Shown: positions 15,777 to 52,618 of the stretch, in pieces
Layout: each line of letters begins with the position of its first letter
Numbering within the stretch: the stretch's first letter is position 1
Virus record (IMG/VR): IMGVR_UViG_3300021959_000051
Location: 1 to 55,732 of that record
Direction: 5' to 3' (one strand)
Origin: a virus
DNA: 55,732 nt
Notes under the pieces: model-generated
Told to the model about the DNA's origin: nothing
Databases searched by the model: none
The model's input: only the letters and a program-made list of their open reading frames with translations
Translations under genes and position numbers: made by a program

Positions 15777-15784
15777 TATTTATA
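15777..15784 (-). promoter_or_regulatory. T4-type late promoter for the spike/cupredoxin genes
   Basis: Exact TATAAATA on the minus strand, 24 bases upstream of the ATG at 15753 and overlapping the last codons of the FkbM gene. It separates a late tail-protein block from the upstream sugar-modification cassette. Confidence 0.8.
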
Positions 15785-29787: not shown

Positions 29788-30603
29788 TTATTTCATACCA
29801 TTATTTATAATAGTTCTACGTTCTATATCTTCTTCAATACATTTATTTCCATACTGTACTTCAAGTATATGACATGGTTTGTCATAAGGATTGTAAGCTC
29901 TATGCCAATCTTCCTTATGTATAACATAAGTCTGATGTTCTTTTAAAGCTATTGTTTCATCTCTGCCAGCATTAGTTTGGATAATATCCCCATGCTCAAT
30001 ATCTATCTTTAACATTCCTTCAAGAACGTACCAATGTTCGCTTCTATGAAAATGTTTTTGATCTGAAAGAGACTTGCCAGGATTAATTACTAGCTCCTTA
30101 GCTTTGACAGTACCTTTATCATCAAGTACTCGCCAATACCCCCATTCTCGTTCTGTCTTTTGAGTCTTCCACTCATCAAGAATCCAACTACTAGAATTCT
30201 TTTTATTGTTTCCACCAACACCAAATACAAATCCTATACTGCCTTGATCAGCCAAAGATCTAGCGTACTCTACTTCTGGAGTCGACCCCTTATGTCTATC
30301 TCCTCCGTTAGCAAATATAATTTGTGAACCTTTTGGAAAGTTTTCTCTAATATGGTTAATAGCATTTACTGCATGATCTTCGCTATCATCAAAAGCAAAA
30401 GACATACCAACACCTTTAATATTGTTGACTATATCTAATCTTTCTTCAATAGGCATGAACGGTCTACCTTTTTTTCGAGTTAGCCACTCATCACTATTTA
30501 CTCCTACACATAGGATATCTCCAAGCTTTTTAGCTTCTTGAAAATACTTTACATGTCCAGAGTGAAGGGGATCAAAGCCCCCTGTCACTAAAACAACTTT
30601 CAT
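29788..30603 (-). CDS. Nucleotidyltransferase-cupin fusion (sugar-nucleotide enzyme)
   Basis: Fusion of two sugar-activation domains in 271 residues. Residues 1-140 are a cytidylyltransferase-fold nucleotidyltransferase: VTGGFDPLHSGHVKYF has the HxGH catalytic motif (HSGH, 14-17), followed by RPFMPIEERLDIV. Residues about 155-262 are a cupin of the mannose-6-phosphate isomerase type II kind, with QKHFHRSEHWYVLEG (182-196; H184, H186, H190) and H234. The N-terminal domain resembles HldE/TagD-type adenylyl- or cytidylyltransferases. It probably makes an activated sugar or polyol for the neighbouring glycosyltransferases; the exact substrate is unknown. Confidence 0.85.
   Translation of the reverse strand: MKVVLVTGGFDPLHSGHVKYFQEAKKLGDILCVGVNSDEWLTRKKGRPFMPIEERLDIVNNIKGVGMSFAFDDSEDHAVNAINHIRENFPKGSQIIFANGGDRHKGSTPEVEYARSLADQGSIGFVFGVGGNNKKNSSSWILDEWKTQKTEREWGYWRVLDDKGTVKAKELVINPGKSLSDQKHFHRSEHWYVLEGMLKIDIEHGDIIQTNAGRDETIALKEHQTYVIHKEDWHRAYNPYDKPCHILEVQYGNKCIEEDIERRTIINNGMK
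29802..29809 (-). promoter_or_regulatory. T4-type late promoter for the 115-aa ORF, GT-A and fibre 1
   Basis: Exact TATAAATA on the minus strand within the last codons of the nucleotidyltransferase-cupin gene, 45 bases upstream of the ATG at 29757. Confidence 0.75.
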
Positions 30604-36729: not shown

Positions 36730-38172
36730 TTAGAATGTGCCGCCGTCAACTACAGCAAGAGATACTGCGCCAGAGGATACACTGAACTCAGTAGCATTAA
36801 AAGAAGCAACACCTTTGTTAGATGATGTAGCAAGCTCGGCCGCGACTGTCATTTGATTTGAGCCATCAACGTAAGTAAGATCAATACCTTCACCTGCTAA
36901 GAAGAAGTTAGTGGTCAAATGATCTTCAATGGCTTCCATAATTTTTACATCGTTAAATGTAATTGTGTTAGCATCGTTGATACCAGCTTCAATATTAACG
37001 CCGTAGTTAAAGTCCCAAGCTGTATTTGAGTTATCCCATATAATAGTTGGTTTAGTACCTGAGAATTGAGCTCCACCTACTGTAATACCAGCACCATCTG
37101 CTGCAGCTCCACCAGTAGCAGAATCAGCAAGTACAAGATTTAGGTCATTAACAGACATCGTAGTTGAGTTAATGATTGTCTGAGTACCTTGAACCTGAAG
37201 GTTACCACGAACAATTAAATTACCACCATCTGAATCTTCCGGAGCTGGATCGATGTATAGAGTATTTGATCCATCAGTAGAGCTTAGAGTGTTGCCATTT
37301 AACTTTAAGTTATCTACTGTAAGAGATGTTAGTCCTAGAACGTCACCATCTAGATCAACAGTAATAGTCTGACCAGAAGCAGCTGCAGTTAGGTTAGTAC
37401 CACCTGAAACTGTAAGAGATTGAGAGGCAAGCGCTACTGATCCAGATCCAGAGTTACCAGCTGTACTCAAAGTAGTCGTAATTGAAGCTGTTGAAGCAGA
37501 AGTCAATCGACCTTGTGCATCAACTGTAATAACTGGAATAGCAGTTGTACTACCATATGACCCAGCAGTTACCGCGGTATTGTCTAGGTTAAAAGTAGCA
37601 GTATTTGATGTAACAGCAGAGGTTATTCCAGTACCGCCAGCTAATGTAAGAGTTTCAGTAGCCGTTTCAATATTAGTCGTGCCAGTATCACCAGCAACAT
37701 CTAGATCGTTGTTAGCAGCAATAGTTGTATCAACATAAGCTTTTGTAGCAGCGTCTTGAGCACCTGAAGGATCAGTAACATTTATAATACGAGATGTACT
37801 AACATTAACTACACCTGTACCGTTAGGGTCCAGAATAACATTGCCGTTTGTGTCTGTTGAGCTAATAGTATTACCATTAATTGTAATATTATCAACATTA
37901 AGTACATCTATCTTGCTTGAAGCATCTACTAGTAGTGCAGAAGAAGCTGTAAGAGTACCAGGAGTATGATCGAGTAGATTAGCAAAATACTCACCACCAA
38001 TTGATACAATCGATGTTGCAACTCCGTTGCCGTCATCTCCTTTACCGAAGAATAGTCTATCTCCGAGATTTGCGCTAGTACCTGTACCAGCTGAGTATGC
38101 TATTTCACCAGTGGCGAGGGACGATGGAGCCGCGACACCTGTGGATCTTTTTATTCTTATTGTAGCGGCCAT
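36730..38172 (-). CDS. Structural fibre-type protein (480 residues)
   Basis: Ser/Thr/Asn/Gly-rich beta protein. Its start MAATIRIKRSTGVAAPSSLA and TGEIAYSAG resembles the attachment N-terminus of giant fibre 2. It contains beta-repeat phrases such as LTVDNLKLNGNTLSSTDGSN, GNLIVRGNLQVQGTQTIINS and VNDLNLVLADSATGGAAADG, typical of marine phage fibre/baseplate proteins, and ends AVVDGGTF. It begins at a TAATG junction with the 75-residue ORF. Probably a virion structural protein of the fibre base; no enzymatic features. Confidence 0.75.
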   Translation of the reverse strand: MAATIRIKRSTGVAAPSSLATGEIAYSAGTGTSANLGDRLFFGKGDDGNGVATSIVSIGGEYFANLLDHTPGTLTASSALLVDASSKIDVLNVDNITINGNTISSTDTNGNVILDPNGTGVVNVSTSRIINVTDPSGAQDAATKAYVDTTIAANNDLDVAGDTGTTNIETATETLTLAGGTGITSAVTSNTATFNLDNTAVTAGSYGSTTAIPVITVDAQGRLTSASTASITTTLSTAGNSGSGSVALASQSLTVSGGTNLTAAASGQTITVDLDGDVLGLTSLTVDNLKLNGNTLSSTDGSNTLYIDPAPEDSDGGNLIVRGNLQVQGTQTIINSTTMSVNDLNLVLADSATGGAAADGAGITVGGAQFSGTKPTIIWDNSNTAWDFNYGVNIEAGINDANTITFNDVKIMEAIEDHLTTNFFLAGEGIDLTYVDGSNQMTVAAELATSSNKGVASFNATEFSVSSGAVSLAVVDGGTF

Positions 38173-38864: not shown

Positions 38865-39824
38865 TCATATTCTATATTGATCCATTGTAAATGTTGATCC
38901 AGTCAAGCGGTTATAATCAGCGTTAAAGTTAGACCAGACTAATGCTTCTGGTGCATCATATAACATATCACAGTTCTTACAATAATCTATAGAATCAAAG
39001 TCGTGCATCTCATGCGCTTTCCTTAGTTTATTGTATTCATCTCCATACCAGATTTCCTCTACAGTTTGATGTGACAGATGACCTAAAACCGCTTTACTGT
39101 CTTGTCCAAGAACCATACAACATGGAACGACAGCCCCTTCTCTTCTTCCAGTCCCTCCAGCCCTTACAATTAGATCTGGAGAGAATGGTCTACCACAACT
39201 ACGTTTCTTCTTACCTATTCTCCAATCAACGTCAAGCTGTCCTGACCAGTTATGCATTTTCCAAATTGAAGCTTTTATTCCAGGAACATGATCAATCCAA
39301 TTTCTTCTATAAGATGCTACTTCATAATTAACTCTATTGTTATCTAATATAAGATGATATGATCCTATACTTCCTCCATATTCAATTGCTGCATTAGCAT
39401 TATCCATAACATTAAAGAAAGCATCTTTGCTCATTTGTTCTTTATACAGTTTAGGGGTATATCCAGTTACCGATATACGTGCAAAGTGCATACCAGCATC
39501 AATTGTTCTTTTCATAATGTCATCCTTAAACCAAAATCCATTGGTAATAAATGACATTTTAAACCCTTTATCTGTACCTGCTTTAACAAAGTCGGGCAAC
39601 TTCTTATTCATTGTAGGTTCACCAGATCCTTCTAAGTATATTTCTTGAACTTCTGAATCTTGAAGTTGATCTAATATATTTAAGAACATCTGATAATTCA
39701 TCATTCTTTTAAATGATTTTTCTCTGCCATCATCAAAAGAATGTGGGCAAAACTGACAGCTATAGTTACACGATCCACATATCTCTATAACTGCTTTGCT
39801 TATTGGTAATTTTACCGTTGCCAT
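38865..39824 (-). CDS. Radical SAM enzyme with C-terminal SPASM/twitch-type cluster domain
   Basis: A 319-residue radical SAM protein. The CxxxCxxC SAM-cluster motif is C19-x3-C23-x2-C26 (CNYSCQFC), with the following GSGEP (67-70) and FITNG (92-96) strands of the barrel. The C-terminus holds an auxiliary-cluster pattern: C210, then G-x4-C at 230-235 (GAVVPCC), and C282-x2-C285 (YCKNCDM). Such domains occur in peptide-modifying and sugar-modifying enzymes. It is the last gene of the carbamoyltransferase operon, overlapping the GT9-like gene by 13 bases, with a clear AGGAG site. Substrate unknown. Confidence 0.92.
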   Translation of the reverse strand: MATVKLPISKAVIEICGSCNYSCQFCPHSFDDGREKSFKRMMNYQMFLNILDQLQDSEVQEIYLEGSGEPTMNKKLPDFVKAGTDKGFKMSFITNGFWFKDDIMKRTIDAGMHFARISVTGYTPKLYKEQMSKDAFFNVMDNANAAIEYGGSIGSYHLILDNNRVNYEVASYRRNWIDHVPGIKASIWKMHNWSGQLDVDWRIGKKKRSCGRPFSPDLIVRAGGTGRREGAVVPCCMVLGQDSKAVLGHLSHQTVEEIWYGDEYNKLRKAHEMHDFDSIDYCKNCDMLYDAPEALVWSNFNADYNRLTGSTFTMDQYRI

Positions 39825-40330
39825 ATCTGTACTCCTGGTTTATCATAAAGACGTGCAATATGATACCAAGATGTATCAGACCCCACATACAACTTACATC
39901 TCTGTATTTGTCTAACTTTACTTATAACTTGTGCCGCGCTTTCAAAGTTTCTGGAATCCCCAAGATCAATTACATTCTCCATTTCAACTTCAACATCAAG
40001 AATTTTTATCTGATGATGGGGTTTATCTGATGAGAATCTTGATCCTAGTATCCAAGAAGATACAACATGTTTTTCTTGATTATCACACGGAGCAAGATAA
40101 TCTTTCATTAGATGTCTTATCTGATGATTGGTAAGTCCAGGATCAAAGTCTTCTTCTCCGTTGTCTCCAACGTAAAGAGGGTTTACATTATTAAACATAA
40201 AATTGTACACAGGCATATATTCATACACTTCATTAATCAGACCTTGTGGTAAGTAAGAAAGATCACCTTCAAAGAAAGCATCTGCATAGATAGTTCTTTT
40301 TAAATTTAACCAAACTGCTCCTTTAAACAT
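39812..40330 (-). CDS. GT9-like (glycosyltransferase-type) protein
   Basis: A 172-residue protein from the ATG at 40330 (MFKGAVWLNLKRTIYADAFF), chosen because AAAGGAA lies upstream; an in-frame ATG at 40381 would overlap the preceding gene by 59 bases. The C-terminus SAAQVISKVRQIQRCKLYVG and VGSDTSWYHIARLYDKPGVQ resembles the nucleotide-sugar part of GT9/heptosyltransferase-like proteins. It lacks a full N-terminal GT-B domain, so it may be a partial or accessory transferase. It overlaps the kinase-like gene by 8 bases and the radical SAM gene by 13. Confidence 0.72.
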   Translation of the reverse strand: MFKGAVWLNLKRTIYADAFFEGDLSYLPQGLINEVYEYMPVYNFMFNNVNPLYVGDNGEEDFDPGLTNHQIRHLMKDYLAPCDNQEKHVVSSWILGSRFSSDKPHHQIKILDVEVEMENVIDLGDSRNFESAAQVISKVRQIQRCKLYVGSDTSWYHIARLYDKPGVQIWQR

Positions 40331-40835
40331 TTTTCCATTCCTTTTCAAAAACACTAGCTGCCTCTTGTAATGACATGTCATACAACTCTAACCACTTCAA
40401 TCCAAGCAATTCGTTCTTATACCAGTTGTATGCATCTTCTCTGGATCCTAACGTGACATAGTCATCCCAATCAATTAAGTATGGTTTGTTATCACTTGTT
40501 TGATAAATTATATTGTAGTGTTGAAGATCCCGCTTTGACCAATCATATCCTAACGAATCAATTAATGTCAAATAGTTAGATATGTTTTCATTATAACCTT
40601 TAAGGTTTACAGGTTTATGATCAATGTATCGTTGAGTGACGACATAACAATTATCTCTTGATTCTTCTGAAACAAAAAGTTCTGGTTGCGCTATCTTCAT
40701 AAGTCGTGTGGCAAACTTTACATCTTCAATGAAATCTTTAGTAAAGTAATGTTTTTCAACATAAAGATTATTTCTATTAATAATCAGATGAGATCTACCC
40801 AGTAAGTTCTCACCCTCCTCTAGTATTAATTTCAT
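40323..40835 (-). CDS. Minimal kinase-like (RIO/choline-kinase type) protein
   Basis: A 170-residue protein with the catalytic-loop motif KRDLQHYNIIYQ (101-112; Asp103, Asn108) and a following metal-binding Asp in LIDWDD (120-125; Asp122). Strand-like YVEKHYF (25-31) could hold the ATP-binding lysine. The order matches a protein-kinase-like fold of the small phosphotransferase kind (Brenner/choline-kinase type), but with a reduced N-lobe. The neighbours (GT9-like, SGNH, carbamoyltransferase) suggest a sugar or lipid-linked substrate. Whether the lobe is functional cannot be judged from sequence. Confidence 0.7.
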   Translation of the reverse strand: MKLILEEGENLLGRSHLIINRNNLYVEKHYFTKDFIEDVKFATRLMKIAQPELFVSEESRDNCYVVTQRYIDHKPVNLKGYNENISNYLTLIDSLGYDWSKRDLQHYNIIYQTSDNKPYLIDWDDYVTLGSREDAYNWYKNELLGLKWLELYDMSLQEAASVFEKEWKNV

Positions 40836-40919
40836 TCTTCATTCTCATAAATAAATGTGTGCTCCCGTTGCTCTTTCTTTTTAAAGAGAGACTTAACGCG
40901 ATATAAAAAAAACTTTATT

Positions 40920-41699
40920 CTATACTTTATATTCTTTGTAATTCTCATTAAACATCTCCGCTAATTTTATGTGTCCTTGTTTGTTTGGATGAGCATCCCC
41001 ATTGCCTACTCTCTCTTCAGCTGTAAGATTTTTATCAAAGAAATATCCCCCTAGGCTAGGTACAAACGGCCATCCAATAAGATCTATGTCATTCAAACTG
41101 TCCATAATATCAAAGTAGTCACTATTTAACAATTCGTTTGTTATTGCGTTTCTTGTTGACTTATTGAACCCAGACAACGGTTGAAGCATTTGAAACACAT
41201 GCAACTTGATTCCACGTTGTTTGCAAAGCTGTTGTAGAATGTAGATATCTCTTAATGTATCGTCAATCATTGTTTTTATTGATAGAGGAGTGTTGAAGAT
41301 AGCTTTTATTTGAGATTCTTCGTTACCAGTTAGTCTTTCGAGTGCTTGAATATCCTGCTGGCTTATCTTTGTTTCTCTTTTACCGTAAAGAGTGTCTTTA
41401 ATTTTATCAGGTGCACCATTAAATATTTGAGGATTGAACGCTCTACCTCTAATAGAAAACCTTACCCATTGACTCAATGCTATAATTATTCTACTAACAT
41501 TGGAGTTTTTTAATAATGCATCAATAGCATTTCTGATTATCAAATCGTTGCCTATCCCTGATTCCGAAACATTAATAACTTTGTCGTCAAACGATAACTG
41601 ATCAGCCCATATTTTCCATGGAGCTTGGATTGGTATTCCTGGTTCAATTAAAACTCTTAGATTGTTTTTACTAAAACTGTCACCTGATATAATTATCAT
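40920..41699 (-). CDS. SGNH/GDSL-type hydrolase, second of pair
   Basis: A 259-residue protein with ISGDSFSKNN (4-13, GDS block I), SGIGND (48-52, glycine block) and GDAHPNKQGH (234-243), the C-terminal block with Asp-x-His. These fit the SGNH hydrolase layout, probably an esterase/deacetylase on a glycan or a related acyltransferase-like activity. The final block has DxH rather than the more usual DxxH. It follows another SGNH gene with a 20-base overlap and a GAGG site, an apparent tandem duplication that has diverged. 84 bases separate it from the kinase-like gene. Confidence 0.8.
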   Translation of the reverse strand: MIIISGDSFSKNNLRVLIEPGIPIQAPWKIWADQLSFDDKVINVSESGIGNDLIIRNAIDALLKNSNVSRIIIALSQWVRFSIRGRAFNPQIFNGAPDKIKDTLYGKRETKISQQDIQALERLTGNEESQIKAIFNTPLSIKTMIDDTLRDIYILQQLCKQRGIKLHVFQMLQPLSGFNKSTRNAITNELLNSDYFDIMDSLNDIDLIGWPFVPSLGGYFFDKNLTAEERVGNGDAHPNKQGHIKLAEMFNENYKEYKV

Positions 41700-42471
41700 A
41701 ATACGCCTCGTATATTTTGTTAGCTATCATTTCGTGACCTTTATCGTTGGGGTGACTGTCTTCTGGTCCAAATGATTTATCAGTTTCCCTAATAAGATCA
41801 TCTATTGTATTGCCTCCTATTGATTTAAGTGTAGGCCAATCCACAAAGGTTTCATTGTCAATGTGATTAAAAAGATTTTCATCTAGTAAAGTTTGAACAA
41901 TCTCCTTAATAGGAGATTTATTTTTATGTTTTGAAACAATATATTCTATAGGACTAATTGCTTGAATAAAGATATGATTAATATTATTAGAGTTGCAGTA
42001 GTTTTGTATAACAAATATATTTGTCAACCAATCGTTTATTGATTTACTCATATATCTGCTCCACATGTGTTGCTTAACAATATACTCTCCTAAAGCAATT
42101 GCTGGCTCAATCATTATTTTATATCTGTTGACTTTATGAACAGAATTGTTGTAGTGCCCAATAGGATCAATGCTGATATCCTTAGTGAATCCAGTTTTGT
42201 TTATTGTAGATTCCCAGTGAGACACTCTACCAGCATTAGTCCAAGCTATGCAAACACAATCAGGATCACCATTAACAGCAATGTAATTAAAAAAATCTCT
42301 TAGTATAAAGTTGTTACTAGCACCGACATAAGCACCATTGTACAGCAGCCAATCGTCTCCTAGTTTCTTCTTTACAATTTCTGGCCAACACGTTGTTAAT
42401 CCTGTTTGATATTTTTTAGACCAATAATCCTTATCTGTAAAACTATCACCACAACAATACAATTTCTTCAA
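41680..42471 (-). CDS. SGNH/GDSL-type hydrolase, first of pair (TTG start)
   Basis: A 263-residue protein with CCGDSFTDKD (6-15), VGASNN (49-54) and EDSHPNDKGH (237-246), so blocks I, II/III and V of the SGNH fold are recognisable. The start codon is TTG at 42471, preceded by GGAG; it overlaps the stop of the carbamoyltransferase by 4 bases (TTGA). It may remove or add an acyl group on a sugar, matching the carbamoyl- and glycosyltransferases beside it. Shares the DxHPNxxGH end with its downstream neighbour but little else. Confidence 0.8.
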   Translation of the reverse strand: MKKLYCCGDSFTDKDYWSKKYQTGLTTCWPEIVKKKLGDDWLLYNGAYVGASNNFILRDFFNYIAVNGDPDCVCIAWTNAGRVSHWESTINKTGFTKDISIDPIGHYNNSVHKVNRYKIMIEPAIALGEYIVKQHMWSRYMSKSINDWLTNIFVIQNYCNSNNINHIFIQAISPIEYIVSKHKNKSPIKEIVQTLLDENLFNHIDNETFVDWPTLKSIGGNTIDDLIRETDKSFGPEDSHPNDKGHEMIANKIYEAYYDNYIR

Positions 42472-43784
42472 AACACTTTTACTCCATATAGCTTTTCAAA
42501 ACCTTTTGCATGCTTTATATTATCAACCATAGGTTTACCCTTTACATTCAAAGAAGTATTCAGTAGCATTGGACATTGAGTTTGTTCATACCATTCTTCG
42601 AGTATAGGTCTTAACACAGACTTACAATCCTTCTTTACAACTTGAACTCTAGCTGTGCCATCAACATGAGTTACTGAACGATGGTCATGTTTTGCCACCG
42701 CCACATACTGCATATATTCGTTCATAGGACCAGTAAAGTATTCATCTGCATATTCTTCCAATATGGCTGGAGCAAATGGTCTGAATCTTTGACGTTGCTT
42801 TATGTCATTGACTGTATCTTTAATATCCAAACGAGGATCGGCTAGAAGACTTCTATTGCCTAATGCTCGTGGTCCAAATTCAGCCTTACCATTCGCCACC
42901 CCACAAACAGAGTTATCTAATAAGTACTTAACTACTTCTTTTGGGTTTACTTCTCTGTCTATGTTGGTACCAAGATAAGGACTAACCCAGTTAAGTTGTT
43001 TGTCAAGATAAGCAGCTGCAGCTCCTAATGATGATCCAGCATCACCTGGATTTGGAAATATCCACACATCATTAAATAGTGGTCTTATCTTAGTATTTGC
43101 AACACAATTAAGAGCTACCCCTCCACCATAGCATAAATAAGCAGAGTATGATCTCGCCTTTGTCATAATATTAATTATTTCTTTTTCGAGATATTTTTGA
43201 GCACTAGCAGCCAAAGTATTTTTATCTACCGCAGGCATATGCAGCCCCCTACAACCCCTATGTAGATTGTACTCAGAAAGATACGAAAGGTCAACAGGTA
43301 AAGACCCATATGCAGCCATCCCCATTAAGATATATTCATCTTCCATAGGCTTCAAACCAACATAATCTGTGATTGCCGAATAAAATAATCCTAAAGATTT
43401 AGGATATCGCATTGACCATTTCTTCTTTTTATTATACCATATAGAAGCCGTATCCCATTCACCTATAGCATCAATTACGACACAAACAGGTTCTTCTTTG
43501 AATGGTCTGGTATAGTAGGCAGCAGCGGCGTGCGACCAGTGGTGATCAACATAGGCGTTATGCTTATCTCTAGTGACCCAACTCTGGCCATATAATAGTC
43601 TTCTTATGTTCTTTTTAAATGGTTTTTCATAGAAGACTGTAAAGCCATTGATATCGACATGAAGTTTACGATCATTCTTTTTTCTTGAGTGTCGCTCACT
43701 GTGATGAGCTTCAATAATATCCTGCCCCTCTAAATAACAATAAGCAGCATCGTGAAACCCATAAGACAATCCAATTGTAGTCAT
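42468..43784 (-). CDS. NodU/CmcH-type carbamoyltransferase
   Basis: Transfers a carbamoyl group to a hydroxyl, typically on a sugar. The 438-residue protein shows the family blocks: GLSYGFHDAAYCYLE (5-19), YVDHHWSHAAAAYY (78-91), VVIDAIGEWDT (102-112), CYGGGVALNC (218-227), WIFPNPGDAGSSLGAAA (241-257), GKAEFGPRALGNRSLLADPR (299-318), and MLLNTSLNVKGKPMV near 415. It is shorter than typical NodU (550-600). A late promoter box lies 31 bases upstream inside the divergent glycosyltransferase gene. It leads the operon carbamoyltransferase-SGNH-SGNH-kinase-like-GT9-like-radical SAM. Confidence 0.93.
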   Translation of the reverse strand: MTTIGLSYGFHDAAYCYLEGQDIIEAHHSERHSRKKNDRKLHVDINGFTVFYEKPFKKNIRRLLYGQSWVTRDKHNAYVDHHWSHAAAAYYTRPFKEEPVCVVIDAIGEWDTASIWYNKKKKWSMRYPKSLGLFYSAITDYVGLKPMEDEYILMGMAAYGSLPVDLSYLSEYNLHRGCRGLHMPAVDKNTLAASAQKYLEKEIINIMTKARSYSAYLCYGGGVALNCVANTKIRPLFNDVWIFPNPGDAGSSLGAAAAYLDKQLNWVSPYLGTNIDREVNPKEVVKYLLDNSVCGVANGKAEFGPRALGNRSLLADPRLDIKDTVNDIKQRQRFRPFAPAILEEYADEYFTGPMNEYMQYVAVAKHDHRSVTHVDGTARVQVVKKDCKSVLRPILEEWYEQTQCPMLLNTSLNVKGKPMVDNIKHAKGFEKLYGVKVF

Positions 43785-43794
43785 AGTATATCCA

Positions 43795-44700
43795 ATGAAA
43801 AGATTAATTTACAGTATTTATATCGACATTCCCAAAGAGCTATTAGACCCTCAGCCTCCTCATCACGGAGAGACAGAGGATAAAAATATCAAAGCAAAAC
43901 GTCAGTTTGCTGAACACTACCCTTGGCTGTTACAAAAGCAGATAGATTATGCAGCTACCATTGGAGCTGAGTATAAGCACTTTACATACGATGACAAATA
44001 TCAAAAGTTAAGAGAATGGTATAATGAGACTTATCCATTCATAACAGAATACAACATTGTAAACTTCTATAAGATTCATCTAATGTATGAACTAGCAGAA
44101 CAATATGATGAGATACTTTACCTTGATCTAGATGTGTTACCAGTGACAGAAGAGAACTTCTTTGAAGCTCATGATTTATCTAAAGGAATAGCAATCAAGA
44201 AAAATTCTCATGGAATGCATATGAACAAAGATTTTATAAAGCATAGAGAAGATCTTTATGAAAGGAAAGGCATGGCTGGGGGAAGTATAAGAAGCCCAAT
44301 GGCTAAGTGGTGGAATTCAAAAGCTCTGTGTTTGGAATATGGTAAGCCTATAGAAGATATTCCAGTTTACAATACTGGTATTGTGGGTTTCAACAAATAC
44401 TGGCTAGACAAACTAGAATTCTTTGAAGATTTTGAAGAAACGCTTTATGAGATGAAAGAGCTATGTGAAGATGAACACACTATGTATCCAAAGTTTGCAC
44501 AGGCTCTATTTGGATACGACAATGAGACTATCTGGGGATTCAAGGCTCATATGAATGATGTTCCATCTGTATGGTTGGATGGTAGATGGCATACGTTTCT
44601 TGACAAGATGACAATCATTCCCAGTAAGTCTAAATTGGTTCATATTATCAACAAGAGCTTTGACGAAGTGAGAGATTGGTATGAAAAGAATAATATTTAG
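43795..44700 (+). CDS. GT-A glycosyltransferase A (plus-strand island)
   Basis: A 301-residue GT-A-type protein beginning MKRLIYSIYIDIPKELL. The DxD motif is in DEILYLDLDVLPV (105-117; D111-x-D113), and PVYNTGIVGFNKY (about 195-208) is a likely acceptor/donor loop. It is divergent from the carbamoyltransferase with only 10 bases between the two start codons, and has no clear Shine-Dalgarno site. With the next two genes it is one of the few plus-strand genes in the window. Related in layout to the second gene. Confidence 0.85.
   Translation: MKRLIYSIYIDIPKELLDPQPPHHGETEDKNIKAKRQFAEHYPWLLQKQIDYAATIGAEYKHFTYDDKYQKLREWYNETYPFITEYNIVNFYKIHLMYELAEQYDEILYLDLDVLPVTEENFFEAHDLSKGIAIKKNSHGMHMNKDFIKHREDLYERKGMAGGSIRSPMAKWWNSKALCLEYGKPIEDIPVYNTGIVGFNKYWLDKLEFFEDFEETLYEMKELCEDEHTMYPKFAQALFGYDNETIWGFKAHMNDVPSVWLDGRWHTFLDKMTIIPSKSKLVHIINKSFDEVRDWYEKNNI
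43815..43822 (-). promoter_or_regulatory. T4-type late promoter for the carbamoyltransferase operon
   Basis: Exact TATAAATA on the minus strand, 31 bases upstream of the carbamoyltransferase ATG and inside the first codons of the divergent plus-strand glycosyltransferase. It implies that the glycan operon is expressed late, together with virion genes. Confidence 0.72.
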
Positions 44701-45475
44701 CATATATGGTGACAATGTTAACAATGTTGGTGAAAGTGTAACAGATTATAAATCAAATAACTTTCGCGCATATAAAGATCAGTTAGTTAAGTGTAAACAA
44801 GTGTATGCAAATAAGTGCAAAGCTGACTTTGTTTTGATAGACACTTCTCTAAACAACTTTGTGGATATACAATTTGAAAAGATAAGACTGTTAGAAGAGT
44901 TTGCGCGTTCGTATGATGAGGTTCTGTACTTAGACTTTGATGTTATTCCTAATTATTCAGCAAGAAGCATCTTTGATAGTGTTGATACTTCGAAGTTAAG
45001 TATGCACCCTCTCAATAGACCTCTCAATGGGATTTATTTAAGAGGCGCGTTACTATCAGATTGGCTAGACTCTCAAAGCATGTACGTTAAGACATGCTCT
45101 AAAAGATCTATGCTACTACTAGAAGGAATAAACGGTAATAATTTAACATATAACACTGGAGTAGTGTTAGGCAATTCCGAGATTATAAAACAAGTTAATT
45201 TTACAGAACAGCTAGATGATATGCATGAGTTGTTAGAAGAAGCATGTGAAGACAATCTTTACCCACCAGAGATATCAAGGCATTTTGTTCCCAACAATGA
45301 AGTTTACATTAGCTATTTGATTGAGAAGAACAACATTCCTCATCACGATCTATCAATGAACTGGAATTTTATTCTTGATGATGTTAAAGAGTATGCAACA
45401 GCGTCTGCTGAATTAATTCATGCAGTAAATAAAAACTTTGATATGTTTAAAATGCTTCTGGATTACAATGCTTAG
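44681..45475 (+). CDS. GT-A glycosyltransferase B (plus-strand island)
   Basis: A 264-residue relative of the previous gene, starting MKRIIFSIYGDNVNN and carrying DEVLYLDFDVIPN (79-91; D85-x-D87), with LTYNTGVVLGNSEI later. Its start overlaps the stop of gene A by 20 bases, so translation is probably coupled. The shared start, YxDE-x-LYLDxDVxP block and NTGxV loop indicate duplication followed by divergence. Donor and acceptor unknown. Confidence 0.83.
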   Translation: MKRIIFSIYGDNVNNVGESVTDYKSNNFRAYKDQLVKCKQVYANKCKADFVLIDTSLNNFVDIQFEKIRLLEEFARSYDEVLYLDFDVIPNYSARSIFDSVDTSKLSMHPLNRPLNGIYLRGALLSDWLDSQSMYVKTCSKRSMLLLEGINGNNLTYNTGVVLGNSEIIKQVNFTEQLDDMHELLEEACEDNLYPPEISRHFVPNNEVYISYLIEKNNIPHHDLSMNWNFILDDVKEYATASAELIHAVNKNFDMFKMLLDYNA

Positions 45476-46043
45476 AGTCATTTGTGTGTGCACCGGAAAT
45501 AAATTTAAACAGTGGTATGTCGACAACTTGAAATACCAAGTAGACAAGTACTCTAAGTTACAGTATGATGAATTTGTAGTTATAACAGATGATAACTATG
45601 ATGGTGTCTTCAACAAACTACAAATGTTTGATAGGTATAGAGACGGACAGAACATCTATTTTGACTTGGATGTTCTGATAAAAGGAGATTGTAACAGCTT
45701 TCTTAAAAAAGATTTCACACTATGTTTTGCTCATTGGAGAGATGAATATCATACAAGAATTAATAGCTCTATCATATCTTGGTATGGAGACGTATCACAC
45801 ATCTATGAGATGTTTCAACAAGATCCTGATTATTACATGACAAAATACTATCGTGGTATTGATCAAATGTTATATGAAAATATTGAATATAAAGTCTATC
45901 CCAATACTGATACATACTGCTCTTATCAAACAGTTACAGAAGAATTACCTTTTAACGTATATCTTTTTAATCAGAGACATCAGAAGATGCTTGAGCCTGG
46001 CTGGCATCAAAAATTTCAATTGCCGCTCTCAGAGCATCGATAG
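45468..46043 (+). CDS. Glycosyltransferase-type protein C (plus-strand island)
   Basis: A 191-residue protein from the ATG at 45468 (MLRVICVCTGNKFKQWYVDN), with the metal motif QNIYFDLDVLIKG (61-73; D66-x-D68). A longer TTG-started form is possible but the ATG overlaps the stop of gene B (ATGCTTAG), the typical coupling here. Third of a tandem series of DxD transferases, but more diverged than A and B. Its last 77 bases are antisense to the end of the minus-strand 174-residue gene. Confidence 0.8.
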   Translation: MLRVICVCTGNKFKQWYVDNLKYQVDKYSKLQYDEFVVITDDNYDGVFNKLQMFDRYRDGQNIYFDLDVLIKGDCNSFLKKDFTLCFAHWRDEYHTRINSSIISWYGDVSHIYEMFQQDPDYYMTKYYRGIDQMLYENIEYKVYPNTDTYCSYQTVTEELPFNVYLFNQRHQKMLEPGWHQKFQLPLSEHR

Positions 46044-46491
46044 GAGTATTGGACCTACGGATTTTCTTCTTTAGATCTTTGTCCTTACATTGCTTAACAA
46101 ACTCTTTTTCAAACAATTGAAGTTTAAAGAAGAACAGTTTTTCCTTATGAAGTTTTTCATTATAAGGGTCAAAGATTAAATCAATAAGGATCTTATGAAA
46201 GTCGCTAGTGCCCCCATCATCTAAGTTAACTAACCATCCTTTTTCTTTAGCAATTTCAATAACCTGATCCTTAAATGCTTGTTCAGATTCCTTTGTATAT
46301 GTCCAAGTGTTTTCATGAATCTCATCTACAGTAACATGCTCGAGTAGTTCCTTCCACTGAGGATCTTCATCTTTTGTTTCCATAATGATTTCTACTAGTG
46401 CACCTGGATTATCAGGATCTTCCCAATAACTCATTACTGAATCTCTTTGTTCATTTCTAAAGTATGCATTGATGTATCTAAAATTATTCAT
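45967..46491 (-). CDS. Hypothetical protein in radical SAM operon
   Basis: A 174-residue charged protein of unknown family: MNNFRYINAYFRNEQRDSVM, then PGALVEIIMETKDEDPQWKE, a Lys/Phe-rich segment HKEKLFFFKLQLFEKEFVKQ and a final helix TPIDALRAAIEIFDASQAQA. No known motif recognised. Overlaps the twitch-domain ORF by 8 bases and its 3' end overlaps the convergent glycosyltransferase C by 77 bases. Its codon pattern is coherent, so it looks a real gene despite the overlap. Confidence 0.75.
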   Translation of the reverse strand: MNNFRYINAYFRNEQRDSVMSYWEDPDNPGALVEIIMETKDEDPQWKELLEHVTVDEIHENTWTYTKESEQAFKDQVIEIAKEKGWLVNLDDGGTSDFHKILIDLIFDPYNEKLHKEKLFFFKLQLFEKEFVKQCKDKDLKKKIRRSNTPIDALRAAIEIFDASQAQASSDVSD

Positions 46492-46795
46492 TTGATTCTT
46501 CCTCTACTGTGCACCACCGTTTACATTGCCTAAGCGCTTTATCATTAGACCAAGATTCAATTAACTCATCCCACCACGGATGTTCATTAATTGAATCAAA
46601 GTCATTCTTAAAAATATTTAGGTCATCTTTATAATGATCGTACTGATGCATTATGTGTTGGTTTTCTCTGTACCCTGATTTTTCTCCTGAAGCTCGACTT
46701 TGATAATCATTGTTTACTAAGTAGCAACAAGGATACACTTGACCATCAATATTGATTACCATTTGATTAAGCTCACGCCACTTACATTTAATCAT
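46484..46795 (-). CDS. Stand-alone SPASM/twitch-type Fe-S domain, split from radical SAM
   Basis: A 103-residue protein that looks like the detached C-terminal domain of the radical SAM gene just upstream. Its cysteines are C4, C23, C24, C91 and C95: C4-x13-G18-x4-C23 (IDGQVYPCC) matches the auxiliary-cluster motif of SPASM/twitch domains, and CKRWC supplies a second pair. The start ATG overlaps the upstream stop by 8 bases in the +1 frame (ATGATTAA). So either two polypeptides act together, or a frameshift joins them, or the gene is broken. Compare the one-piece radical SAM at 38865-39824. Confidence 0.82.
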   Translation of the reverse strand: MIKCKWRELNQMVINIDGQVYPCCYLVNNDYQSRASGEKSGYRENQHIMHQYDHYKDDLNIFKNDFDSINEHPWWDELIESWSNDKALRQCKRWCTVEEESNE

Positions 46796-47528
46796 TTAAG
46801 TACACAACTCCAGATGGCATTTTTTTTCTATATATTTCTTCAACAGAGTGTTTGGTTACCATATCAGTAACAGTAGCAGCTTCTAATATGTCCTGCTGTC
46901 CACGCTCGTTTATAAAACTGAAGCTGTCGTTTGTAAATGTGGGAGCTGAATAAAATCTATCAGTAACAAGCCACTTGTGAGCATATGCTCCATATGATTT
47001 AACTAAGTCAGATATTTCTGCAATATGCTTTTCGTTATGTTTGAAGACAATAGTCAGAGCCCATGCTTCAGCAGGCGTGCTTGAGAGTTCTTTCATATGA
47101 TTTAAGACTTTACTAAGCTCTGTTTTCCGTCTATATTTAGCATGCATTTCTTGTGTACTTCCATCAACCGCAAACACAACTGTAAGTTGATCTTTTCCAG
47201 CACAACCCAGTTCCCACCAAAACTCTTCATCTCTCATAGCCCCGTTAGTGTCAATAACAATCTTAGACTTACTGTTAACAGTTATATATTGAACTATGGG
47301 AAGAATGTCTTTATTCATAGCAGGGTCGCCCCAAGTCCCACAAAAATTATATTGTCTATGCCGAGAGGGGTGAGGGAATACCTTTTTAAAAGTTTCTAAA
47401 TTCCATTGTAGAAGTGGTAGCCAGTCTGCTTTGCCAAGTCCGTTGGGGTTGGTTCGATGACACTGAGGGCAAGCTGCATTACAATACGTCGAAACGTCTA
47501 GCCACACATTAGGATCTCTTAACCACAT
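46788..47528 (-). CDS. Radical SAM core enzyme (N-terminal half of split system)
   Basis: A 246-residue radical SAM domain: DVSTYCNAACPQCHRTNP gives C16-x3-C20-x2-C23, followed by NFCGTWGDPAMNKDILPIVQ (GxP-type block) and IVIDTNGAMRDEEFWWELG, the barrel strands. It lacks an auxiliary cluster of its own; that is encoded in the next ORF. It begins at a TAATG junction with the methyltransferase gene. Family members with such domains modify peptides or sugars; no substrate peptide is apparent nearby. Confidence 0.9.
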   Translation of the reverse strand: MWLRDPNVWLDVSTYCNAACPQCHRTNPNGLGKADWLPLLQWNLETFKKVFPHPSRHRQYNFCGTWGDPAMNKDILPIVQYITVNSKSKIVIDTNGAMRDEEFWWELGCAGKDQLTVVFAVDGSTQEMHAKYRRKTELSKVLNHMKELSSTPAEAWALTIVFKHNEKHIAEISDLVKSYGAYAHKWLVTDRFYSAPTFTNDSFSFINERGQQDILEAATVTDMVTKHSVEEIYRKKMPSGVVYLND

Positions 47529-48127
47529 TAAATAACTCCAATCACCATATATCTATCATGATTTTCGAATGGCATTGTACCACTATAGTAGATGTTAGAT
47601 AAAGGTGTCTTCATCATAAACTCTTCAAGACTATCTACACAATTTACATGATCCTCAACAGAGTAGTAATTATTAGATTGAACAGCTACTATTGTTTCTT
47701 GTTTTAACGATCTGTAGATATGCTCAACATATTTCTGTTCAATATGTTCTATACTGGTGTTAATATAAACTTTACAATCAGGAACATTCAAAGTTGTATC
47801 TCTAGTTTCAAAGTTTATATTATAATCATCGAACAAGTATTCACCCATGATTTTACATCCTGGATCGATATCAGAATTGACTATTATATTGTCTGGAAAT
47901 TCTTTTCTAAGAAGATATGATGTTAGTCCTAACCAACCAGCAGCAACATGTATGTCTTCCATGCCAATGTAATCTGAAAGACAGTCTACCAACCACTGCT
48001 TACCAGACCAGTGCTTGGGTCCTAGTCCGTTACCTACTTCTTTTATTCTATTGAGATTTAGTTCGTCGGGATTGTCATAAATATATTCAACGAGCTTGAA
48101 ACCTCGTTTCAAGATTTGATTATCCAT
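47528..48127 (-). CDS. SAM-dependent methyltransferase-like protein
   Basis: A 199-residue class I methyltransferase-like protein. The SAM-binding glycine segment is VAAGWLGLTSYLLRKEF (61-77), followed by the acidic end of strand 2 in NSDIDPG (84-90), and INTSIEHIEQ later. It begins at a TAATG junction with the 242-residue coiled-coil gene and ends at one with the radical SAM gene. A methyl transfer to a sugar or peptide is plausible from context only. Confidence 0.78.
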   Translation of the reverse strand: MDNQILKRGFKLVEYIYDNPDELNLNRIKEVGNGLGPKHWSGKQWLVDCLSDYIGMEDIHVAAGWLGLTSYLLRKEFPDNIIVNSDIDPGCKIMGEYLFDDYNINFETRDTTLNVPDCKVYINTSIEHIEQKYVEHIYRSLKQETIVAVQSNNYYSVEDHVNCVDSLEEFMMKTPLSNIYYSGTMPFENHDRYMVIGVI

Positions 48128-48855
48128 TATATAATCTTATTAAGTATTCCGACAACTGTCTTTGCAGTTGTTTTTTTATCAGACATTTTCTTTAACATCT
48201 CAACAACATTTTCTTGATTATTGATAACCGTAAGAAATTCCACAACGTCTTTTACTGACTTCTCTAAGTCTTCAGTTGACACACCAGAGATTATGAAAGA
48301 GTTAATCTTGGCAATTTGCTCATTGATTTGCCCGTCTCTTTTTTTAGAAAGAGCTTCGTGCATGACTACTTTCTTTTGTAACTCTTTAATCACATTATCA
48401 GTGTGTAACTGAGCTGCAATTGCTTTCTTCTTCCAATCTTTAATCACACTTTCAGTGTGCAACTGAGCTGCGATTGCCTTTTTCTTCCAATCTTCCATTC
48501 TTTCTCGCTCACGCGCTGCATGAACTCTAGCTTCTAAAGAATGTTTTTGCCACCTATCAACTTCCGCTTGATACCTTTCAACTTCTGCTTGACACCTATC
48601 TACTTCACCTTGATATAGATCCGCTGCAGCAGTTTTAGCAACCTCTACAACACTAGCCATTTGTTGTCTCTTAAATTCAGCTGTAGTATCTAAAATTTTC
48701 TCGTTAGTCCAGCCTAGATCTTTTAGCGCTTTGTGCTGCACTGTGTCTGGTTGAATATATTCTTCAATGATACCATCTTCTTCAGATTGATGCAACACCA
48801 GAATAGTGTCTTGTTGATCATTTGTATATCTTGCTTCTATGATATCTTTATACAT
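48127..48855 (-). CDS. Coiled-coil protein with internal duplications
   Basis: A 242-residue protein; residues 60-170 are predicted coiled coil. It contains a Q-A-E-V-D/E-R heptad run near 80-105 (EVDRCQAEVERYQAEVDRWQ) and an 18-residue direct duplication DWKKKAIAAQLHTESVIK / DWKKKAIAAQLHTDNVIK (about 122-157). No catalytic motif. Located 8 bases after the 317-residue virion gene and joined to the methyltransferase by TAATG. A structural or scaffold role is possible, but unproven. Confidence 0.75.
   Translation of the reverse strand: MYKDIIEARYTNDQQDTILVLHQSEEDGIIEEYIQPDTVQHKALKDLGWTNEKILDTTAEFKRQQMASVVEVAKTAAADLYQGEVDRCQAEVERYQAEVDRWQKHSLEARVHAARERERMEDWKKKAIAAQLHTESVIKDWKKKAIAAQLHTDNVIKELQKKVVMHEALSKKRDGQINEQIAKINSFIISGVSTEDLEKSVKDVVEFLTVINNQENVVEMLKKMSDKKTTAKTVVGILNKII
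48385..48492. repeat. 54-base direct repeat in coiled-coil gene
   Basis: Two adjacent 54-base units (48385-48438 and 48439-48492), nearly identical, encoding the 18-residue DWKKKAIAAQLHT.. unit on the minus strand. An apparently recent in-frame duplication. Confidence 0.88.
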
Positions 48856-49819: not shown

Positions 49820-52618
49820 TTAACTTCCTGCGCCATAGAGTGTCTTTATAGCTGATCCAGCTGAGTTATAAATTATTAAAGATACAGCAGATTTTAGTTC
49901 AGAGCTACCAACAGCATCAGCTGCAATCATTGCTGTTGAGACTTGTGCTTGAGATACAACTCCGGAGGTGTTTGTTGTTAAAACTCTATCAGCGGTAGTC
50001 ATACCTCCAAGTTTAATAGGTACATGAGAAGCTAACCCAAGAGTAACTCCGTCACTTGCAGCCTTTAAGAATTCTCTAAGTGATCCTGCTTTCATGTATT
50101 GGTATGAAACTGTAGCGCCTTCAGATCCATCAGTCAAGATAGAAGATGCTGATGAAACAGTATGATACATAAGTTCTTCACCGGCGTCATTGTGCCCCGA
50201 CATACTCAACATAGCTGAAGTTACAACAGATGGACTCTTATCTGCATTTCTAATATTAAAATTTGCAATGGTATCAGAATCACTAACTTGAACTGAGCTG
50301 GTTGGTCTAAAATATATACGAGGTGAGTTGTTATACCCTTGAATAGATTTAACATCTGTAATATCAGAATCTAAATGAAAAGTAGTACCACTTAAGTTAA
50401 TATTATTACCAGCAGCATATGTTGTGTCTGTAGAAGTAATGGTAATATCATCACCAGATCTAGTTATAGTGCTTGCACCAGCGCCTGTAAATGTTACAGT
50501 TTGATTTGAATATACTGGAGCAGAACCTCCTGTACCACTTGCAGCGATATTCCAGCTAGCATAATTATCATAAGTATTTTTAATAGATACGGCACCACTT
50601 GATACTGTAAAGTCATTTGTATTAAATGAGGCAATACCTTTGTTAGTGGTTGAGGCATCTTCTCCTTTGATAGTTGAGCCATCAAAGTCAATACCTTGAC
50701 CAGCAGTCATTGCTGTTAGAATAGATGTCGCTGTAGGACCTGTGTATGTTATTAATCCAGAAGTATTATTATATGAAACACTTCCTAAGTTAGAGGAAGA
50801 TACAGAAAGCTGTCCAGGAACATCTGTTAGTCTTGCAATCGTGCCTGCATTAACTCCAGAGAATTCCCATTTATCATTAAGCTCGTTAAATTGTAAAATA
50901 GCATTAGCTTGATCACCTCGCTCTATTTCGATTCCAGATCTAAGCGAAGTTGCTGGGGTGCCTGTTTGACCGCTATTGAGAACCATAATGTTATCTTCAA
51001 TAGTCATTTCAGCAGTATTTAAAGTAGTAGTGGTTCCACTAACAGTTAGGTTACCCGTTACAACCAGGTTTTGAGGAACAGTAATATCGTCCGCCAGTAC
51101 AACATCTAATGTACCGTCTACATCTTGATAGGCAACAGAAACTCCTGTCTCAGTGTTGCCAGTAAACATTGCTCCGACTACGTCTTGAATCTTTTCCGGG
51201 TTTAGTCTAATAATACCATTTGAACTGTCACCTAAAAATGAGCTATCAGTTAGATCACTAAACACCACTGCTCTGCTCATATTACCAAGAGTACCTAGCT
51301 GCCAGTAATCTAGATCTTCTCTCCACAGAAGCTGTGCACTATCTGCAGTACCACGATCTACAATAAAACCAGCATTACTGACTGGATTACCAGTTGTACC
51401 TGATAGAACTTCTAAGAACTGAGCTGCGTTAGTAGTTGTACCACTTACAGTAAAGTTACCAGTAACTGTAAAGTTACCTCCAGCTGAAATATCATTTGTT
51501 ACTGTTAGATCATTTCCAATAGTAACATCATTAGGAAGTCCAATAGTAGCAGAAGATCCTTCGCCTGGAGTGTGAGTAACCTCTACTTCATTAGAGGTAC
51601 CAGTGATACCTGACATATAGTTACCAGCAGTCTCTGTTCCAAGAATAACACCGTTGTCTTTAATTGTTACATTACCACCAGTAACTAAGAAATTAGATGT
51701 ATCAAATTTAGCAACACCTAGACTTGAACTAGTCGCAGTTTCTGCTGCTATGGCTATTTGATTATTAGTTACTGTAGTATCGATAGCAGAACCAGCTGCA
51801 AAGGTAATTGTATCGCCTAACGTTACATCATCTGTAACTCCAGCAGACGCTGCAATCTTAAACGCTCTACCAGTTGATGTTACGATGCCACCTATGTTAA
51901 CATCACCATCTACTACAACATTATCTCTAAACTCTGCACTATCTGTGACTGTTAACAGACCATCAATAGTAGTATTGTCTAGTGTTGTAACACCATCTAC
52001 ATCGAGATTACCAGTAATAGATGCACTATCAGCTGCTAACCTATCTACAAAGGCTGTACCGTCTAGATATAGATGCTGCCATTGTTGAGTTGTACTACCA
52101 AGATTATATGTATCGTCTGTATTAGGAATAATATGAGAATTAACATCAGCATTGAATACAACATTGTCAGTACTAGCATCACCTAGATTAATATTAGAGT
52201 TTGTACCAGCTTTAAATGTTACTTCACCGTCTACAATAAGAGTACCACCCATTGTGGTATTTCCTGTGACGTTTAGGTTGGTGTTAATATTTACAGAACC
52301 ATCAACAACTATATTGCTTTTAAATTCAGCACTATCGGTTACAGTTAATTCATCTCCTAGAAAGGTATGAGAGTTAACTTTAAGGTTGCCTTTAATAACA
52401 TTACTAGCTGCAGAGTCTCTCATATGAAGCTTAGCAGAGTTTATTAATGTATTATTAATAGAGTCTAATCTAGTATCTACTTCGTTAATAGCTCCAACTA
52501 TATCTGAGTCTTGAGTAGTGGATAAAGCTCCTCTCCACCCTACGTCACGAGAGATGATATTAACCTTTTCTTGAAAGGTCTTTACTGTATCGCTAATATT
52601 TACAATCTGCTTTGGCAT
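49820..52618 (-). CDS. Large tail fibre/baseplate structural protein (932 residues)
   Basis: Starts MPKQIVNISDTVKTFQEKVN and has DVGWRGALSTTQDSDIVGAI followed by a coiled-coil stretch, then repeated beta-solenoid phrases (GNLNVTGNTTMGGTLIVDGE-type, NLVVTGNLTVSGTTTTLNTA, LSSSNLGSVSY). These fit fibre shaft proteins of marine T4-like phages. The C-terminus (AVGSSELKSAVSLIIYNSAG, KTLYGAGS) is a small end domain. No S74 domain. Probably a fibre linking the baseplate to distal adhesins. Expressed with the upstream 73-residue ORF. Confidence 0.8.
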   Translation of the reverse strand: MPKQIVNISDTVKTFQEKVNIISRDVGWRGALSTTQDSDIVGAINEVDTRLDSINNTLINSAKLHMRDSAASNVIKGNLKVNSHTFLGDELTVTDSAEFKSNIVVDGSVNINTNLNVTGNTTMGGTLIVDGEVTFKAGTNSNINLGDASTDNVVFNADVNSHIIPNTDDTYNLGSTTQQWQHLYLDGTAFVDRLAADSASITGNLDVDGVTTLDNTTIDGLLTVTDSAEFRDNVVVDGDVNIGGIVTSTGRAFKIAASAGVTDDVTLGDTITFAAGSAIDTTVTNNQIAIAAETATSSSLGVAKFDTSNFLVTGGNVTIKDNGVILGTETAGNYMSGITGTSNEVEVTHTPGEGSSATIGLPNDVTIGNDLTVTNDISAGGNFTVTGNFTVSGTTTNAAQFLEVLSGTTGNPVSNAGFIVDRGTADSAQLLWREDLDYWQLGTLGNMSRAVVFSDLTDSSFLGDSSNGIIRLNPEKIQDVVGAMFTGNTETGVSVAYQDVDGTLDVVLADDITVPQNLVVTGNLTVSGTTTTLNTAEMTIEDNIMVLNSGQTGTPATSLRSGIEIERGDQANAILQFNELNDKWEFSGVNAGTIARLTDVPGQLSVSSSNLGSVSYNNTSGLITYTGPTATSILTAMTAGQGIDFDGSTIKGEDASTTNKGIASFNTNDFTVSSGAVSIKNTYDNYASWNIAASGTGGSAPVYSNQTVTFTGAGASTITRSGDDITITSTDTTYAAGNNINLSGTTFHLDSDITDVKSIQGYNNSPRIYFRPTSSVQVSDSDTIANFNIRNADKSPSVVTSAMLSMSGHNDAGEELMYHTVSSASSILTDGSEGATVSYQYMKAGSLREFLKAASDGVTLGLASHVPIKLGGMTTADRVLTTNTSGVVSQAQVSTAMIAADAVGSSELKSAVSLIIYNSAGSAIKTLYGAGS

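Follow-up and report, generated by a model that had tools for sequence, protein, structure and literature searches.

Gene content of the island

The window, meaning the whole 55,732-nt stretch of DNA analysed, comes from a T4-like marine phage, and the island under study spans positions 38865-48127. Its features, together with the adjoining operon head, are as follows.

38865-39824, minus: rSAM1, radical SAM and twitch/SPASM enzyme, 319 aa (profile and fold)
39812-40381, minus: g189, orphan
40323-40835, minus: kin170, small protein with a kinase-like DLxxxN...IDWDD motif (kinase identity unproven)
40920-41699, minus: SGNH_A, SGNH hydrolase (motif), paralogue of SGNH_B (24% identity)
41680-42471, minus: SGNH_B, SGNH hydrolase (motif)
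42468-43784, minus: CmoT, compact O-carbamoyltransferase of the NodU/TobZ/GdmN family, 438 aa (profile)
43815-43822, minus: TATAAATA, core of a T4-type late promoter, which lies 31 bp upstream of CmoT and overlaps the first GT8a codons
43795-44700, plus: GT8a, GT8-type glycosyltransferase (Glyco_transf_8, 3.6e-4)
44681-45475, plus: GT8b, GT8-type glycosyltransferase, paralogue of GT8a (Glyco_transf_8, 7.7e-6)
45438-46043, plus: GTc, glycosyltransferase of the phrog_1962 group (PHROG glycosyltransferase, 1.7e-5)
45967-46491, minus: g174, which follows the fibre gene f317
46484-46795, minus: stand-alone SPASM/twitch protein, 103 aa, five invariant Cys, partner of rSAM2 (SPASM, 1.6e-5)
46788-47528, minus: rSAM2, radical SAM core without an auxiliary-cluster domain of its own, 246 aa (Radical_SAM, 9.6e-7)
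47528-48127, minus: MT199, class-I SAM-dependent methyltransferase fold (AlphaFold model)
48127-48855, minus: coiled-coil-like protein at the operon head (ORF list)

All ORFs are present at the places and on the strands originally predicted, and they are tightly packed (gaps of -77 to +84 bp). The block is not an assembly artefact, because a second, independent contig (L019/L285) holds all of it at 99-100% identity.

The block lies inside a host recognition cluster (HRC) that is bounded by gp14 and VrlC and contains a second sugar block (15780-19626).

10267-11373: gp14/Hc2 (neck), HRC edge
15780-16388, minus: FkbM methyltransferase, second sugar block
16623-17525, minus: group-1 glycosyltransferase, second sugar block
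17509-18366, minus: sulfotransferase, second sugar block
18715-19626, minus: GT9 heptosyltransferase-like protein, second sugar block
21720-28724, 30614-36670 and 36730-38172: tail fibres
28735-29394, minus: GT2-like protein (weak match)
29788-30603, minus: fusion of a cytidylyltransferase and a mannose-isomerase-type cupin
52844-55642: VrlC (phrog_358), right edge of the HRC, continuing past the window end

The HRC contains O-chain-type glycosyltransferases (two GT8, a GT9 and a group-1 enzyme). Both the predicted sugar modification and the placing of the genes amid fibre genes are supported. The sulfotransferase, FkbM methyltransferase, GT9 protein and cytidylyltransferase that the HRC also encodes are further in keeping with a sugar role. 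GC content is 35-44%. The portal is closest to that of phage C48C1 (68%; host of C48C1 not given) and 53-54% identical to those of pelagi- and methylophages, and a DNA-level search against annotated phages returned no match. We consider the phage to be probably a pelagimyophage-like, T4-type marine phage with a hypervariable HRC in which sugar gene sets can be swapped.

Carbamoyltransferase, hydrolases and glycosyltransferases

CmoT is confirmed as a NodU-type carbamoyltransferase, combining a Kae1-like N-domain (Carbam_trans_N, 2.5e-37) with a YrdC-like C-domain (Carbam_trans_C, 5.5e-46). Residues H81 and H85 (HxxxH), D105 and D248 are invariant in four phage CmoT proteins and match the HxxxH and two Asp positions that we take to be the metal site of TobZ. 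The nearest relatives are NovN, GdmN and TobZ, which carbamoylate sugar-containing or other natural products. Family models match the two SGNH hydrolases weakly (GDSL, 0.008); residue conservation bears out their assignment, with S8 (GDS/GCS), G48 and H237 invariant and D235 nearly so in 30 sequences, where GxGN is the majority consensus of block III. An SGNH gene adjoins CmoT in many phages (17 of 45 dereplicated CmoT loci).

The predicted late promoter motif upstream of CmoT is present on the minus strand. The window holds 10 copies of this motif against 8.0 expected, which is not above chance; none falls on the plus strand, and eight of them precede the start of a minus-strand gene. Because the count is not enriched, the late-promoter reading rests on strand and position.

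Three of the four proteins predicted to be of glycosyltransferase type, GT8a, GT8b and GTc, hold up, whereas the fourth, g189, has no family match. MT199 likewise has no direct family match in the profile search, and its methyltransferase identity is borne out by fold (AlphaFold model, pLDDT 97; match to SAM methyltransferases, 1.6e-8). The proposed minimal kinase could not be confirmed: kin170 scores 0.031 against RIO1 and its relatives lie essentially within its own population, the one outside being a shortened copy in locus L286. Direct scans for relatives of g189 and kin170 found the same population only. The true start of g189 is probably the ATG at 40330, giving an 8-bp overlap with the kin170 stop. 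Over its last ~35 residues g189 weakly resembles c11, a phage family that adjoins rSAM1 in other phages (33-residue match); with an HHalign probability of 0.6%, we did not accept this as homology. The neighbouring g174 is probably outside the pathway, because its place after f317 is kept even where a locus has no sugar genes.

Two radical SAM systems

Both predicted radical SAM systems are confirmed, the second having its SPASM domain on a separate gene. rSAM1 matches Radical_SAM (6.8e-15) and SPASM (4.8e-11), and in 28 rSAM1 sequences the CxxxCxxC cysteines C19, C23 and C26 are invariant, as are the auxiliary-cluster cysteines C210, C235, C236, C282 and C285. BtrN is the top match in both the sequence-profile (6.6e-16) and the fold comparison (2.4e-12), followed by BlsE and DesII; the substrates of all three, which act on antibiotic sugars or cyclitols, are sugars or cyclitols. 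They have the same fold as rSAM1, and BtrN also has a twitch domain with one auxiliary cluster. Identity is, however, 15-22% (20% to BtrN), the likeness being one of fold and profile, and we do not assign rSAM1 as BtrN, a 2-DOIA dehydrogenase.

The nearest cellular relatives of rSAM1 (43-47%) belong to SAR11, within surface-polysaccharide loci rich in NAD epimerases/dehydratases, cytidylyl- and nucleotidyltransferases, GT2, DegT and FkbM. Near rSAM1, phage and SAR11 loci have a 2OG-oxygenase-like neighbour (c17) in common, and CmoT is also present in one of the SAR11 loci. Two cellular matches (L059 and L072) resemble phage contigs binned into MAGs and were left out of the host evidence. With this GC content and a portal nearest that of C48C1, the SAR11 kinship of rSAM1 may not mirror the phage's own host.

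The rSAM2 core and its SPASM-type domain are on two genes, an unusual enzyme architecture. The SPASM gene is conserved downstream of rSAM2: all 33 rSAM2 relatives of at least 41% identity for which downstream sequence is present have a separate downstream ORF with 5-10 Cys, the overlap between the two varying from -46 to +4 bp, and five Cys are kept in 28 stand-alone SPASM proteins. A frameshift or sequencing error as the cause of the split was rejected, since the separate ORF is kept across relatives. In four of these (L155-L158) the downstream ORF is 451-452 aa long.

The gene set recurs as two modules

The gene set recurs beside fibre genes in loci L286, L241, L217, L291 and L025 and in phage Mosig, which is the support that the original prediction called for. 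Co-occurrence was assessed in 51 dereplicated fibre-anchored phage loci, with p-values that treat related phages as independent. CmoT is associated with SGNH (p=1e-8) and with rSAM (p=2e-5), and MT199 with GT8 (p=4e-6) and GTc (p=6e-8), whereas glycosyltransferases and rSAM are independent of each other (p=0.44). A CmoT-SGNH-rSAM module and a GT8-GTc-methyltransferase module thus assort separately, and the idea of a single pathway is not borne out.

A proposed role in tailoring host-surface glycans

We favour, as rather likely, the reading that the block is a late-expressed, glycan-tailoring part of the HRC, with the surface polysaccharide of the infected cell as its likeliest target. Rewriting of this surface is most likely because the nearest bacterial relatives of the rSAM enzymes sit in SAR11 surface-polysaccharide clusters.

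The enzymes might instead decorate the phage's own giant Asn/Thr/Ser-rich fibres, with the glycosyltransferases attaching sugars that CmoT, SGNH, methyltransferase and rSAM proteins modify. The island's position between f317 and fibre-assembly chaperone or fibre genes in many phages and the late promoter upstream of CmoT would fit such a virion target, but no fibre marker lies closer than 8 kb in 37 of the 45 dereplicated CmoT loci, one rSAM1 clade sits with GT25/GT8 genes near PhoH, away from fibres, and the cellular relatives are in polysaccharide loci. Nor does the presence of repeat fibres track the module: of 47 fibre-anchored loci, two have fibres with NTAVG-type repeats, and both of these lack rSAM and CmoT, a comparison of low power. 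We regard fibre decoration as unlikely.

Less likely again is that the genes belong to no joint pathway and are unrelated morons gathered at a hypervariable, permissive site. The strong differences in composition between phages, the independence of the glycosyltransferase and rSAM modules and the orphans kin170 and g189 are compatible with this, but association within each module is strong, CmoT repeatedly lies next to SGNH, and L286 has a near-identical gene order at about 70-77% protein identity.

A peptide-maturase (RiPP-like) role for the rSAM proteins is very improbable: SPASM-type rSAM proteins frequently act on peptides, there are weaker matches to PqqE, SkfB and other maturases, and MT199 has a below-threshold PqqD-like match (E=0.059), but the top sequence and fold matches are sugar or cyclitol enzymes, no RRE or PqqD domain matched above threshold in the block, and intergenic gaps of at most 108 bp leave no obvious room for a precursor gene.

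Under the host-surface reading, the plus-strand GT8/GT8/GTc trio would transfer sugars that MT199 methylates, and the minus-strand CmoT operon would be read from the late promoter. CmoT would O-carbamoylate a sugar, an SGNH hydrolase would trim or transfer an acyl group, and the BtrN-like rSAM1 may make a radical change in the stereochemistry or oxidation state of the sugar, with rSAM2 and its separate SPASM subunit providing a second radical step. The altered polysaccharide could then stop progeny and competing phages from adsorbing. Late expression and a place between fibre genes would also suit a virion target. Phage glycosyltransferases can cause seroconversion, and to our knowledge radical-SAM sugar chemistry has not hitherto been tested as a phage surface-remodelling tool. 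More tentatively, the block may encode an uncharacterised form of such chemistry, in which a BtrN-like rSAM and a two-gene rSAM alter a carbamoylated sugar that becomes a receptor-masking mark on host glycan or, less likely, on the phage's own fibres.

Relation to other phages

The original prediction held that no described pathway has this gene set. As far as we found, the exact set is undescribed, but the locus type is published: pelagimyophages have a variable HRC running from gp14 to VrlC, with tail fibres, GT8-rich glycosyltransferases, an rfaE-type cytidylyltransferase and rSAM cassettes, and host O-chain modification has already been proposed for it (Zaragoza-Solas et al. 2020, PMC7029224). 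The main text of that paper makes no mention of carbamoyltransferases, whereas CmoT is in the block here, and its rSAM passages do not discuss a split rSAM2/SPASM pair, two modules or a kinship of rSAM1 with SAR11 polysaccharide loci. Modules rich in rSAM genes have stood without explanation, those of Campylobacter phages since 2010 and those of pelagimyophages since 2020; an rSAM1 family that is common to SAR11 polysaccharide loci and phages and keeps company with carbamoyltransferase, SGNH and 2OG-oxygenase-like genes offers a concrete function to test.

The island of Pelagibacter phage Mosig EXVC030M (at 60-74 kb of MT647606) is in the same position and has counterparts of GT8a (41%, one protein), GTc (40%), g174 (31%), f317 (48%) and CmoT (32%), as well as SGNH, a methyltransferase and a split rSAM with a small downstream gene. 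It differs in lacking rSAM1 and in having extra nitroreductases, aminotransferases, a dioxygenase and a desaturase. In phage C48C1 (OQ984149), CmoT (41%) and rSAM1 (39%) share a stretch of about 4 kb, but there is no SGNH or GT8a match and the neighbours differ.

Campylobacter phages CP220 and CPt10 are described as having interchangeable clusters of several rSAM genes beside nucleotide-sugar transferase genes; the rSAM stretch as annotated there has an amidinotransferase instead of a carbamoyltransferase (PMC2853527). Similarity to the block is distant and limited to rSAM2 (32%). The rSAM cluster of CP220, independent of the present one, likewise lies beside nucleotide-sugar transferases.

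Gene content of the island

The open reading frames (ORFs) originally predicted at 38865-48127 are all present, packed by overlaps or tiny gaps, and an independent contig carries the block at 99-100% identity. Both radical SAM (rSAM) systems and the NodU-type carbamoyltransferase, CmoT, are recovered:

38865-39824, rSAM1: radical SAM protein, SPASM/twitch domain C-terminal
42468-43784, CmoT: carbamoyltransferase with two domains
46484-46795, stand-alone SPASM protein: carries the SPASM domain of rSAM2
46788-47528, rSAM2: radical SAM core, SPASM domain encoded by the next gene

The two predicted SGNH hydrolases, SGNH_A and SGNH_B, are paralogues (24% identity) whose SGNH residues are conserved across 30 sequences. 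The predicted methyltransferase MT199 (47528-48127, minus strand) has a confidently modelled class-I methyltransferase fold (pLDDT 97.2; Foldseek 1.6e-8), and its profile matches spermidine synthases at 2.5e-6. Three of the four proposed glycosyltransferases stand, namely the paralogues GT8a and GT8b (28% identity) and GTc, but the fourth, g189 (39812-40381, minus strand), has no significant relatives beyond its own population. The predicted minimal kinase-like protein, kin170 (40323-40835, minus strand), is a candidate kinase at most, its only significant relative outside the population being a truncated one in phage locus L286. The protein g174 (45967-46491), possibly structural or a fibre chaperone, stays beside the fibre gene f317 even where loci have no sugar gene.

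Two modules at one hypervariable site

The gene set recurs in other phages: L286 keeps nearly the whole gene order of the block (about 70-77% identity) and L241, L217, L291 and L025 keep large parts. The set divides into two separate modules. In 51 dereplicated loci anchored, as a control, on the fibre chaperone, CmoT co-occurs with SGNH (p=1e-8) and rSAM (p=2e-5), and MT199 with GT8 (p=4e-6) and GTc (p=6e-8), whereas glycosyltransferases and rSAM show no association (p=0.44), all p values ignoring phylogeny. This indicates two modules sharing one hypervariable site. An rSAM gene lies within 10 kb of the chaperone in 16 of these loci.

Scanning with rSAM1 found matches at 35-99% identity in 46 phage loci, nine of which (L008-L011, L015-L018 and L025, some near-duplicates) have a fibre-assembly chaperone nearby; of the 23 loci remaining after dereplication, 18 have at least two rSAM genes. 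The CmoT scan gave 45 dereplicated loci, with rSAM genes in 29, SGNH directly beside CmoT in 17 and fibre markers within 8 kb in only 8. The richest viral contigs (L029 and L040, IMG/VR) hold up to 12 rSAM genes per about 20 kb; many of the encoded proteins have an N-terminal SPASM/twitch domain. The island of Pelagibacter phage Mosig EXVC030M (L005, 54-71 kb) adds nitroreductases, a peroxiredoxin, a fatty-acid desaturase-like protein, Asp/Arg hydroxylases and aminotransferases, which hints at a tailoring repertoire that is larger still.

Predicted chemistry

By both profile and fold, the best solved relatives of rSAM1 are BtrN, DesII and BlsE, which act on sugars or cyclitols; a search for peptide-maturase features found none. 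Cysteines 19/23/26 and 210/235/236/282/285 are invariant across 28 phage and bacterial sequences, a pattern that fits one putative auxiliary cluster. CmoT retains H81/H85/D105/D248, which we take to be the TobZ metal site.

Relatives of rSAM2 at 41% identity or more always lack a same-chain SPASM domain and are directly followed by a second ORF; five cysteines are kept in 28 stand-alone SPASM proteins. Remoter relatives (31-36% identity, 367-577 amino acids) may be fused forms.

Cellular relatives and likely target

Most of the nearest cellular rSAM1 proteins come from SAR11/Pelagibacteraceae (43-47% identity). The rSAM1 tree joins the SAR11 group to one phage clade as its sister (support 98/98) and places the window in a separate phage clade. 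In L057, a 232-kb SAR11 contig, and in the six other SAR11 loci scanned, rSAM1 neighbours NAD epimerases/dehydratases, nucleotidyl-/cytidylyltransferases, GT2, DegT aminotransferase and FkbM methyltransferase genes, which identifies these as surface-polysaccharide loci. SAR11 locus L054 also encodes a CmoT. A 2OG-Fe(II)-oxygenase-like protein, c17, adjoins or lies near rSAM1 in three SAR11 loci (L054, L057 and L062) and ten phage loci, some of the latter near-duplicates of one another. It is absent from the window. Two copies next to rSAM1 are:

L057, 9296-9919: c17, SAR11 polysaccharide locus
L010, 10851-11438: c17, phage

The kinship with SAR11 loci, the O-chain-type glycosyltransferases and the occurrence of the modules away from fibres suggest that the block probably acts on the host surface. 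The proposed role is receptor masking late in infection, which would stop new virions from binding to debris or to cells already infected, and would shut out competitors. Modification of the virion is unlikely. The position of the block beside fibre genes counts towards a virion target, as does the late promoter cited in the original prediction, which lies 31 bp upstream of CmoT; however, fibres with NTAVG-type repeats turned up in 2 of 47 comparable loci, neither of which carries rSAM or CmoT. The window's giant fibres (21720-28724 and 30614-36670) carry 42 and 58 such repeats. They are mutually homologous (about 32-39% identity) and unusually cysteine-rich (3.6% and 2.6%, respectively).

Relation to known host recognition clusters

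The window encodes scaffolding protein, portal, sheath, terminase and gp14/Hc2 on its left side and VrlC on its right. The gp14-VrlC interval is the host recognition cluster (HRC) of pelagimyophages, which holds GT8-dominated glycosyltransferases, rfaE and radical SAM cassettes and for which O-chain modification against co-infection has been proposed (Zaragoza-Solas et al., PMC7029224). The window's region matches in position. The portal of this phage is 68% identical to that of phage C48C1 and 53-54% to those of pelagi- and methylophages.

A phage HRC with surface-glycan genes is of an already known kind (PMC7029224), which narrows the earlier statement that no described pathway has this set. 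rSAM-rich modules have also been noted, with no function assigned, in Campylobacter phages (PMC2853527). Four points are new: the CmoT-SGNH-rSAM module, its separateness from the glycosyltransferase-methyltransferase module, the connection between the former and SAR11 polysaccharide loci, and the rSAM/SPASM pair on two genes; we found no description of any of these in the open-access literature searched.

Beyond 38865-48127, the HRC has a second sugar block (15780-19626), which encodes a sulfotransferase, an FkbM methyltransferase, a group-1 glycosyltransferase and a GT9-like protein, and elsewhere encodes a cytidylyltransferase-cupin fusion. The neighbouring ORFs 49820-52618 and 52844-55642 are each 932 amino acids long yet unrelated; the latter is part of VrlC, truncated where the window stops.
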